Shown here: one piece after another, positions 3,001 through 25,977 of the stretch
How positions within the stretch are numbered: the first letter of the stretch is position 1
How the letters are laid out: the number at the start of each line of letters is the position of its first letter
Source: Hygrophila difformis
Lineage: Eukaryota; Streptophyta; Magnoliopsida; Lamiales; Acanthaceae
Direction of reading: 5' to 3'
DNA length: 64,000 bases
Assembly (NCBI GenBank): GCA_030278955.1
Contig: JAOANR010000002.1
Coordinates: 1,426,001-1,490,000 of the forward strand
The notes under the pieces: generated by a model
The model's database searches: none
What the model saw: only the letters and a program-made list of their open reading frames with translations
What the model was told of the DNA's origin: nothing
Position numbers and translations under genes: made by a program

Positions 3001-5168
3001 GCATTGAAGTGTTTATGGATGATTTTACTGTTCATGGAACCGACTTTGAAGATTCTTTAAAAAATTTGTCAAAAATTTTGCAGAGATGTGAGGACACTAA
3101 CTTAGTTCTTAACTGGGAAAAGTGTCATTTTATGGTTCAAGAAGGAATTGTCCTGGGACACAAAGTATCTAGAGCAGGAATAGAAGTAGATAAGGCTAAG
3201 GTTTCTGTAATAGCAAATCTACCACCACCTAAAACAATTAAGGCAGTAAGGAGTTTTCTTGGTCATGCTGGTTTTTATAGAAGGTTTATTAAGGACTTTT
3301 CTAAGATAGCAAGACCCTTGTGTAATCTTCTTCATAAGGATGTGACATTCAGCTTTGATGAAGACTGCTTAACAGCTTTTAAGACTTTGAAGGAGAAATT
3401 AATCACTGCACCTATAGTTCAGTCTCCTGATTGGAGTCTACCTTTTGAGCTTATGTGCGATGGAAGTGAGAATGCAGTAGGAGCAGTTTTGGGGCAACAC
3501 AAAGAAGGCAAACATCATGTTATCTATTATGCTAGCCATACTCTTAATGATACCCAGATAAACTACACTACTACAGAAAAGGAAATGTATGCTGTAGTTT
3601 TTGCCTTTGATAAGTTCAGACAGTATCTTATTGGAGCCCAAACTATAGTTTACACAGATCATTCTGCATTACGATATCTTTTCTCAAAGCAAGAAGCCAA
3701 ACCGAGGTTGATAAGATGGGTTTTACTTCTACAAGAATTTGACATTATTATCAAGGATAGAAAAGGAAAAGATAATGGAGTAGCAGACCACCTTTCTAGA
3801 TTGGAGGAGAAAACAGAGAAGGAGGAAGTTGTAAATGATAAATTCCCAGATGAACAATTGTATGCTTTGCAGTTGCATCAATTTGATTGTCCCTGGTTTT
3901 CAGATTTTGCTAATTATCTAGCTTGCAAGATTGTCCCAAAATTTAAAGACTCTCATCAGAAGTCGAGGTTTTTCAGAGAAATTCAGAAGTACTATTGGGA
4001 TGACCCCTTTTTATTCAAGTTTTGTTCAGACCAGGTTATTAGGCGCTGTGTTCATGAAAAAGAAGGTTTCCAAATTGTCAGAAAGTGTCATGAGAACCCT
4101 TTAGGAGGCCATCATGGTCCTGCTAGGACTGCTAGAAAAGTTCTAGACTGTGGGTTTTACTGGCCAACTATCTTTTTGGATTCCCAGAAACTTATAAAGA
4201 TGTGTGATAGATGTCAAAGATTGGGAAACATTTCAATGAGAGAAGAAATGCCTCAAAAGGGGATTTTAGAAGTAGAGATATTTGATGTCTGGGGAATTGA
4301 TTTTATGGGACCATTTCCCCCATCTTTTGGTAATCATTATATTTTAGTAGCTGTTGATTATGTTTCAAAATGGGTAGAGGCAGTAGCCTTACCCAATAAT
4401 GAAGCTAAACAAGTTACTAAATTTCTACAGAAGAATATTTTTACCAGGTTTGGAGCCCCTCGTGCCATTATATCTGATGGAGGATCTCACTTTGTGAATA
4501 AACTTTTTGAGAAATTACTAAAGCAGTATGGTGTTCATCACAAAGTTGGATCACCATATCATCCTCAGACAAGTGGACAGGTGGAGGTATCTAATAAGGA
4601 AATCAAGCACATTCTACAAGCTTCTGTGAACATTACAAGAAAAGACTGGTCAAAGAAGTTAGATGATGCTTTATGGGCTTACAGAACTGCTTTTAAAACT
4701 CCTATAGGAATGTCTCCCTACAGATTAGTTTTTGGAAAAGCATGTCATCTTCCAGTTGAGTTAGAACATAGAGCATATTGGGCCATTAAAATGCTCAACA
4801 TGGATTTTCAGTCAGGACAAGATAAGAGGAAGTTTGATCTGTCTAAACTAGAAGAGATGAGACTGGAAGCATATGAAAGCAGCAAGATTTATAAAGATCG
4901 AACTAAGAAAATTCATGATTCAAAAATTAAACATAAAGAATTTTCTGTTGGTCAATTGGTTTTGCTTTATAATTCTCGTTTGAAATTATTTCCAGGTAAG
5001 CTCAGATCAAGGTGGACAGGACCATTTCCTGTTGTAGCTGTTCATGACAATGGATCAGTGACAATTATGCTCAATGAAGGAGAAAAGACTGTAAATGGAT
5101 ACAGGCTGAAGGAATATATTGGTCAACAAGATCTAAATATCCAAACTGAATATTTGGATAATCCTTAG
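1..5168 (+). CDS. Gag-Pol polyprotein of element A (Athila-like, 5' partial)
   Basis: The reading frame is already open at base 3; the first ATG is at 78 (1,696 residues from there). It encodes the capsid and replication enzymes of an Athila/Tat-type Ty3 element. Residue numbers count from base 78. End of the gag domain, about 1-75. Zinc knuckle C-x2-C-x3-H-x4-C near 141. Gln/Pro-rich linker. Protease with DLGSS near 505, the D-L-G-S/A-S variant usual in Athila. Reverse transcriptase with F-M-D-D near 979-982. RNase H from about 1120. Integrase with an H-H/C-C zinc region (C-D-R-C), then the catalytic Asp in IDFMG, Asp in SDGG and Glu in VEVSNKE. No internal stop or frameshift is seen, so this pol looks intact and fairly young. 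The stop is followed at once by an A-run and a G-run. Confidence 0.93.
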   Translation, partial: VRNFLLKYFPESKVDEWVDKISSFKMRKGESLKDARDRFFDMLKRCPQHGITERRLLKIFFTGLTHTWQMMINTTGGEQLLQMPLDRAWSTIDTMTASRAVLQDDDPPSPTRKSLVIHTDKNEEKFAALSKQIADLQLAQQANQQAQHQQQQQPVMVLQPAPMEPVYQCGICSGPHHNDQCPQIQEAPKQDESCNYTGFQNKHPNLSYGNTQNAQNAHLLNPQQPNQQQFRPPQPFYPQQQMYPQRPFQQVNQQNRPFGQFAPVPVNFPQQPYPIAQDNTYSLKVENALKEFIVKQTETKNQLQASIKNVENSVTEMAKLLQQREKGKLPSSSETNPQCKAVTLRGGKEVADPEFEKKRDRLLQQKKFKDVQTMEEDDHPEQRQILEDKGLEKNVLGYSFPKEKEGGNDNPNSTGNKKDSLDEHMPRIPYPGRLKNDLQEIKFKKFLEKIKAIEISIPLVELIAEMPTYAKFLKELISGKRSAGEQHMVVLNQNCSLVLQQRIPPKLEDPGSFTLPLIINCKEAGRGLCDLGSSINVMPLAMARRLDLGKMRPVNMTLFFADQSSTRPEGIIEDVIVKTGGLCFPADFVILDIDENVRIPIILGRPFLVTAGAMIDAKNGIVKLHVDNQEVTFDMMKMSTYPFNAFETNVAGNELEDSTMEGGNLFDYYNFFTTDVTENNLTPLTNAKDATFAYLCAVRFADPETGEIKDGSESEDMPSSEQSEDDIDKTDPFEEGSDLKMEVQTRSRLTPSIENPPELELKVLPEHLKYAFLADKKKLPVIISSKLSEEQEQALVCTLKNHIQAIAWTIADIKGISPHICMHRILMEEEYKPSRQPQRRLNPPMQEVVKKEVIKLLDAGIIYPISDSKWVSPTQVVPKKGGICIVTNEHGDEVATRPVTGWRVCIDYRKLNTATRKDHFPLPFIDQMLERLSGKPFYSFLDGYSGYNQIVIASEDHEKTTFTCPYGTFAYRRMPFGLCNAPATFQRCMMSIFSDFIEKCIEVFMDDFTVHGTDFEDSLKNLSKILQRCEDTNLVLNWEKCHFMVQEGIVLGHKVSRAGIEVDKAKVSVIANLPPPKTIKAVRSFLGHAGFYRRFIKDFSKIARPLCNLLHKDVTFSFDEDCLTAFKTLKEKLITAPIVQSPDWSLPFELMCDGSENAVGAVLGQHKEGKHHVIYYASHTLNDTQINYTTTEKEMYAVVFAFDKFRQYLIGAQTIVYTDHSALRYLFSKQEAKPRLIRWVLLLQEFDIIIKDRKGKDNGVADHLSRLEEKTEKEEVVNDKFPDEQLYALQLHQFDCPWFSDFANYLACKIVPKFKDSHQKSRFFREIQKYYWDDPFLFKFCSDQVIRRCVHEKEGFQIVRKCHENPLGGHHGPARTARKVLDCGFYWPTIFLDSQKLIKMCDRCQRLGNISMREEMPQKGILEVEIFDVWGIDFMGPFPPSFGNHYILVAVDYVSKWVEAVALPNNEAKQVTKFLQKNIFTRFGAPRAIISDGGSHFVNKLFEKLLKQYGVHHKVGSPYHPQTSGQVEVSNKEIKHILQASVNITRKDWSKKLDDALWAYRTAFKTPIGMSPYRLVFGKACHLPVELEHRAYWAIKMLNMDFQSGQDKRKFDLSKLEEMRLEAYESSKIYKDRTKKIHDSKIKHKEFSVGQLVLLYNSRLKLFPGKLRSRWTGPFPVVAVHDNGSVTIMLNEGEKTVNGYRLKEYIGQQDLNIQTEYLDNP

Positions 5169-25977: not shown

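Follow-up and report, generated by a model that had tools for sequence, protein, structure and literature searches.

A 64-kb stretch of the Hygrophila difformis assembly (C8:1426001-1490000, hereafter the window) carries two retrotransposons of one broader lineage, element A nested in element B, and between integrase and the 3' long terminal repeat (LTR) of these elements lie six sense-strand genes for F-box/TPR_27 proteins, five in A (F1 to F5) and one in B. Searches of the whole assembly (915 Mb, 246 contigs) and comparison of the copies showed that these genes have been carried through many insertions, and that their reading frames, F3 apart, are under purifying selection like that on pol. 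We consider it probable (roughly 0.6) that an Athila-type Ty3/gypsy lineage acquired and diversified F-box/TPR_27 accessory genes whose products act through SKP1-cullin (SCF) ubiquitin ligases against host proteins that limit the element. An earlier interpretation made from the DNA letters alone (the sequence-only reading) was partly supported overall.

Six F-box genes at one position in two related elements

The sequence-only reading had placed six F-box frames on the strand of their elements, between integrase and the 3' LTR, and open reading frames (ORFs) and Pfam matches confirmed this. It had also grouped the six proteins into one family, which agrees with their pairwise identity of 25-50% and with the order of F-box then TPR_27, found in nearly the same register and at a similar place in all six. 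The F-box domain was over its curated cut-off in F1 (5899-6639, 246 amino acids; F-box-like PF12937, 32.4 bits), F4 (exon 2, 9832-10585; PF00646, 25.9 bits) and F5 (exon 2, 10746-11493; PF00646, 21.5 bits), and below it in F2 (exon 2, 7355-8084; PF12937, 23.2 bits), F3 (exon 2, 8929-9640; a weak match of 17.8 bits) and the B gene (exon 2, 25338-25977; 18.6 bits). TPR_27 (PF23310) was over its cut-off in F4 (27.6 bits), F5 (50.0 bits) and the B gene (32.7 bits), and below it in F1, F2 (25.6 bits) and F3. A predicted model of F4, with a predicted local distance difference test (pLDDT) value of 83, was all-helical, and its later part aligned with TPR repeats.

Element A, about 25 kb long, was inserted in pol of the older element B, whose pol halves join across A, from position 5913 of the 10 kb directly upstream of the window (L009, with coordinates given within it) to window position 20995. 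The 5' LTR of A (L009 5908-9242) precedes the window. The A 3' LTR (17662-20994, plus strand), recognised by its match to the 5' LTR, differs from it by 8 substitutions in 3333 aligned sites. Both LTRs start with TGATGACAG and finish with CTTCA, and a target site duplication (TSD), ATACA, flanks A on both sides, its 3' copy at 20995-20999 matching the 5' flank. With the primer binding site (PBS) described below, A has the paired LTRs, PBS, TG..CA ends and TSD of an LTR retrotransposon. The 5' LTR of B is truncated, and no TSD was seen for B; its 3' LTR (27637-32164, plus strand) was delimited at the start by a polypurine-tract-like motif and a match to the LTR of element C, a further element in the window, and at the end by a 99.0% match to the 5' LTR remnant at L009 2030-2743.

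The PBS TGGCGCCGTTGCCGGGG stands after the 5' LTRs of both elements; we take it to be of Athila type. The ORF at 78-5168 (plus strand) encodes the 3' part of A gag, the start of which lies upstream of the window, followed by pol with reverse transcriptase, RNase H and integrase (RVT_1, RT_RNaseH, Integrase_H2C2 and rve in Pfam), and the B ORF at 20995-23209 (plus strand), cut by A, encodes the end of reverse transcriptase, RNase H and integrase, again by Pfam. This domain order in A and B is that of non-chromovirus Ty3/gypsy elements, and a Pfam scan gave no chromodomain match in either. At the DNA level, the two pol regions are 68.5% identical over 2070 columns. The proposal in the sequence-only reading that A and B are two insertions of one lineage, in which F-box genes are a regular component, was supported, with the addition that A is nested in B.

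The F-box genes recur with the elements across the genome

Copies were sought with queries from both elements, and the resulting lists hold the best-scoring matches, which favours close, intact, full-length copies. With an 8-kb A query running from the end of pol to past F5, all 19 scored places (of 2279 candidates) carried the F-box block; 16 were full length, A included, and three began at query position 679. These three A-type copies (G000:C14:49687448-49735407) lie about 20.2-20.4 kb apart on one strand of contig C14. All three lack the pol-end query up to base 678 and keep the F-box block, and they resemble tandemly arrayed copies in which part of pol was deleted. A 1.4-kb query across the pol-F1 junction gave the block at 40 of 40 scored places among 792 candidates, plus one stray short match; 37 spanned the query completely or but for one base, and the remaining three were the C14 copies.

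TSDs were assessed from 18 5'-end pieces, five of which (L031, L041, L043, L044 and L045) were set aside for want of a complete 5' LTR that could be used. Among the 13 kept, six A copies had a perfect 5-bp TSD, two had none (one of which runs into N) and five were uninformative; two of the six (L032 and L035) have the same flank, cttct, and are perhaps one duplicated insertion, so that the six may represent five independent insertions. In the eight A copies with both ends, LTR divergence was 0-1.4% over about 770-790 bases. Many copies with LTR pairs, target duplications and F-box genes at this position, which the sequence-only reading had called for, were thus largely found.

Plant F-box genes are often clustered in tandem, and one could picture a host F-box cluster with pieces of unrelated retrotransposons on either side, or an artefact of assembly. 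The same block was found at many unlinked places, with differing flanks and TSDs where these were tested, which leaves this account hardly credible at all. For A, a host cluster between unrelated repeats is excluded by the recurrent block together with the TSDs.

The B protein was equally widespread. All 150 scored places for the B F-box protein query (of 5978 candidates) matched, on each of contigs C1-C15 and some small ones, and the three places inspected, of ranks 2, 40 and 139, were each preceded at a distance of about 2.1 kb by a same-strand integrase with 95-97% identity. In total, at least 263 distinct B-type F-box places were obtained by combining two lists, and at least about 180 distinct A-type places carry F-box genes. 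Transduction of a single copy was rejected in view of these many A- and B-type places.

Pairing of integrase with F-box genes pointed the same way. Among the 100 best B integrase places, 60 had a listed F-box gene downstream on the same strand and none had one otherwise arranged within 20 kb, several hundredfold more pairs than the approximately 0.04 per list expected by chance. Among the 135 best A integrase places, 78 had an F-box gene at the expected position; lowering the distance limit from 4.5 to 4 kb gained one of these pairs, one atypical F5-list place, C10:34089231, was omitted from the A count, and the junction lists omit the three shortened C14 copies. Five A integrase/F5 pairs within 20 kb were otherwise arranged (one on the opposite strand; 10-16 kb apart), as would be expected from neighbouring elements. 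At the other 57 A and 40 B integrase places, the F-box gene may lie beyond the listed matches or be really absent. Other copies lacking F-box genes would speak against the sequence-only reading, and no such copy was seen at any place that could be judged.

A TPR_27 search scored 150 of 5039 candidate places, and judged by score and frame length nearly all of them resembled F5; with C10:34089231 set aside, the remaining 149 were assigned to the F5 type collectively by these two measures. The matched stretch contained stops in three of the 150 places, and a second B-type query contained stops in 29 of 150 listed rows; the resulting stop-free fractions, 147/150 and, over the exon, 121/150, are biased upwards because the lists favour intact copies. 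A general F-box search of the genome also gave 150 scored places, none of which was one of the six genes in the window. No host gene of origin for the F-box/TPR_27 genes of the elements was found.

Most of the F-box frames are under purifying selection

To separate variation that predates insertion from later decay, variants common to at least two of the 19 A copies were taken as mostly pre-insertion, and expectations were derived from the mutation spectrum of the spacers. Across F1-F5, the shared variants comprised 75 silent, 32 replacement and 0 stop changes, against 53.7, 127.2 and 10.1 expected (omega-like ratio 0.18, p = 7.7e-18), though such variants may be co-inherited or spread by gene conversion and the p values overstate their independence. 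Wrong-frame controls gave ratios of 1.59 and 1.61. By gene, the ratio was 0.06 for F1, 0.18 for F2, 0.21 for F4 and 0.16 for F5, compared with 0.12 for the end of pol. Single-copy variants (83 silent, 94 replacement, 9 stop) had a ratio of 0.46 and differed from the shared ones (Fisher p = 1.4e-4), a weaker constraint that is expected if some of them arose after insertion.

The reading frames themselves were well preserved. Single-base gap runs numbered 0-2 in each F-box exon across the 19 copies, while the spacers were full of indels. Open frames were found in 16 (F1), 11 (F2), 18 (F3), 17 (F4) and 17 (F5) of 19 copies, and in 14 for the end of pol; in five of the eight F2 rows scored as broken, the defect is a gap of a single base that falls on the final position of the stop codon, and 16 of 19 are open if this is allowed. 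In four B-type copies, pairwise ratios of nonsynonymous to synonymous divergence (dN/dS) were 0.07-0.20 for the F-box gene and 0.12-0.24 for integrase. Given the constraint in shared variants and these B-type ratios, the F-box genes look like selected accessory genes and not like passengers.

In the B-type copies (L059-L061 against window 21947-25977), dS in the F-box exon was also about 2-3 times that of integrase (for example, 0.54 versus 0.18), which suggests that the F-box segment was swapped between subfamilies or is older than the adjoining pol.

These data bear on two further explanations. Passive capture of neutral host fragments (transduplication) has precedents, as host-gene capture by plant LTR elements is well described in the accessible text of two reports (PMC13317346, PMC7264820), but the strong constraint relative to the wrong-frame controls, the near confinement of indels to spacers and the presence of the genes in both families make it a very improbable account. 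The notion of neutral passengers was rejected on the shared-variant constraint and the indel pattern. Plants employ very many F-box genes, and source copies might instead be kept intact because the plant gains from the F-box proteins that they encode, through domestication or host selection, the remaining places being copies of these. The constraint is seen, however, in two families with at least about 180 and at least 263 places, pol is similarly constrained, and the dated A copies are young, which leaves this explanation improbable, although less so than passive capture.

Predicted gene structure, promoters and hairpins

The sequence-only reading had described the six ORFs as intact. The frames are indeed open, but the plain ORFs start with TTG in four of the six and the ATG of the F2 ORF falls inside a predicted intron, and F1 is the only F-box gene with an ATG in the same exon. 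On sequence grounds, short upstream exons at 7015, 8727 and 24151 are likely to be the true starts. Predicted first exons of 17 bases, each with the donor CC/GTAAGC, lie at 7015-7031 for F2 (encoding MAENNP) and at 8727-8743 for F3 (MASNNP), and the predicted first exon of the B gene lies at 24151-24218 with a putative in-frame phase-2 join; all are on the plus strand. An in-frame phase-2 splice from a short upstream exon would be possible in five of the six genes, all but F1. F4 and F5 have an acceptor and no first exon of their own was found for them; the F3 first exon could join in frame to the F3, F4 and F5 exons and is perhaps common to the three.

The candidate splice sites are conserved: GT at the F2 and F3 donors and AG at the F2-F5 acceptors (six sites) were present in 19 of 19 A copies, the F3 first exon showed no variant in these copies, and the F2 and F3 introns were full length in all of them. 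If right, this gene structure points to one ancestral arrangement, with perhaps alternative use of one first exon. As sense introns would have survived repeated RNA copying, the genomic RNA would have to escape splicing, as in retroviruses.

An LTR-like promoter had been proposed in front of each gene. This held for B, where a putative promoter region (23700-24030, plus strand) with a TATA-like site contains a repeat-rich CCGCGAC array in common with the B LTR (E = 1.7e-14, 64% identical across 214 columns), but not for A, as the A spacers tested matched neither the A nor the B LTR. In A, a TATA-box-like TATAAAA at 5812-5818, unvaried in 19 copies, precedes F1, and a TATA-box-like site at 8573-8582 lies upstream of the F3 first exon (both plus strand).

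Hairpins had likewise been proposed before each gene. They are real, with RNA folding z values of -3.5 to -7.4 in six stretches, but there is not one per gene: two lie before F1 in a cluster between pol and F1 (5400-5640; z = -3.96 and -7.38), two after F5, ending in the polypurine-tract-like motif CTAAATGTGAGTATGG (11642-11778), one after B pol, with a polypurine-tract-like motif (23290-23320; z = -5.15), and one in the predicted B intron (25234-25264; z = -5.24), all on the plus strand. The hairpins at 11642, 11748, 23293 and 25234 finish with a near-identical motif, CTAAATGTGAG, then G or T and ATG, and a motif of this type also precedes the A 3' LTR. The internal motifs could be polypurine tracts within the elements, or remnants of former LTR junctions.

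Other features of the window

Downstream of F5, element A contains an open frame of 859 amino acids (11827-14406, plus strand) that had no Pfam match. Its first 474 bases had an omega-like ratio of 0.12 in shared variants, a pol-like constraint, and it is probably another accessory gene of A. Two pieces of Transposase_32-like frame (PF20167) follow at 15089-16615 (plus strand), with matches of 27.2 and 18.5 bits, both below the cut-off of 45, that cover the complementary profile parts 4-57 and 89-176. Element D (34320-44757) is a young LTR element with 99.86% identical LTRs and a gag-pol frame of 1237 amino acids, and it alone matched the chromodomain, weakly, with 15.8 bits and so below the cut-off. 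It sits within the minus-strand element C, which is related to B. The open frame at 58681-59673 is presumably a host AP2/ERF transcription factor by resemblance, and a minus-strand fragment at 50130-50543 resembles what we take to be a FAR1-type protein.

What the F-box genes may do

By binding SKP1, an F-box turns the protein that carries it into the substrate receptor of an SCF ligase. We propose that an Athila-type lineage took up an F-box/TPR_27 gene, probably from a plant gene, and that the F-box genes diversified between integrase and the 3' LTR, into one in the B branch and five in the A branch. They are predicted to be transcribed from internal promoters, and most to be spliced from a short first exon, which F3, F4 and F5 may use in common. 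Judged by their domains, the proteins would use the F-box to enter host SCF ubiquitin ligases and would bring in targets with the TPR-like and C-terminal cysteine part; host proteins that limit the element would then be removed and host protein turnover redirected. From the fact that the F-box genes were kept working while the elements copied, we suggest that the elements direct them at the host.

Several results weigh against this proposal. F2 and F3 are below every Pfam cut-off, and the B protein is below the F-box cut-off; F3 alone showed no significant constraint in the shared variants (ratio 0.68, p = 0.45). A Foldseek search gave no strong fold match (0/168 at E 0.001), and a comparison with PDB chains gave no sequence match beyond chance. 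The copies were ranked by score, and intact ones were over-sampled. Selection would likewise be expected if a few source copies were of benefit to the host, and none of our observations is specific to silencing.

The main rival is that the F-box proteins act on the life cycle of the element itself, tuning Gag, integrase or the 859-amino-acid protein, limiting copy number or excluding siblings. The selection pattern and position are the same as for retroviral accessory genes, and each of the five paralogues could have one element-encoded partner; the domains, however, point to a host ligase, and our analysis identified no such partner in the element, and we regard this rival as unlikely, if clearly ahead of the other alternatives.

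Returning to action against host proteins, the presence of five divergent paralogues would imply either more than one target or an arms race. A bolder form of that proposal is that the lineage has evolved a family of ubiquitin-ligase adaptors, grown to five in one branch, with internal promoters and one short first exon alternatively spliced to several F-box exons, that removes several host silencing or defence proteins. The arms race would then resemble the one in which viruses deploy F-box proteins, except that a resident genome parasite would wage it; this we advance tentatively and with some doubt. For most accessory ORFs in plant LTR elements no function is known, and the F-box here provides a recognisable biochemical handle. 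As it predicts both a partner, SKP1, and a route to targets, the escape of long-lived plant retrotransposons from control becomes directly testable. In addition, nearly all of the 150 best-scoring TPR_27 matches in this genome look like copies of the elements, so that retrotransposon genes may be swelling the counts of plant F-box genes.

Comparison with known systems

Athila elements resemble A and B in gag-pol order, in sense ORFs between pol and the 3' LTR and in the PBS TGGCGCCGTTGCCGGGG. The internal region of A is several kb longer than is usual for Athila, and, unlike Athila, A and B add one to five F-box/TPR_27 genes. A Transposase_32-type ORF is also reported for Athila, in the accessible part of a study of sunflower elements (PMC11728184), and A has the two sub-threshold matches to this family.

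The env-like ORFs, Grande gene23 and Retand TRP28 are conserved accessory ORFs found between pol and the 3' LTR in most copies, as far as the accessible sections of the reports describe (PMC7264820, PMC11963269), and gene23 is there given its own promoter (PMC7264820). Unlike these ORFs, the cargo here is a host-type ubiquitin-ligase adaptor, present in A as a multigene array. The F-box is not named in the accessible sections of PMC7264820, PMC11728184, PMC11963269 and PMC13317346. Among titles and abstract openings, with most subscription journals outside this scope, we found no description of an F-box gene as cargo of a plant retrotransposon. The main survey of additional ORFs is reportedly that of Steinbauerova and colleagues. 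Accessory ORFs in plant LTR elements are known, then, and on the literature seen in part the F-box/TPR_27 cargo appears new.

Plant F-box proteins with PF23310, which we take to be those resembling At2g35280, have the same F-box-TPR_27 order, and the exon-2 proteins are about 210-250 amino acids long. Unlike the plant genes, those described here sit in mobile elements.

Polerovirus P0, a protein not known to have a TPR_27 part, offers a functional analogy only, in that a parasite encodes an F-box-type protein; P0 comes from an RNA virus. According to the accessible text of PMC6593998 and PMC3588083, P0 has an F-box-like motif, binds SKP1 and acts on AGO1, with an autophagy pathway contributing to AGO1 loss, and the plant F-box protein FBW2 is likewise described as acting on AGO1 in the part of PMC9035678 available. 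By this analogy silencing proteins would be an attractive target, and they are our leading guess, not a result.

Host genes captured by LTR elements, such as Bs1 and others, are present in one or few copies, in the accessible account of PMC7264820. The F-box genes of A and B are like these captures in being host-type coding sequence within an LTR element, and unlike them in being a selected component of many copies.

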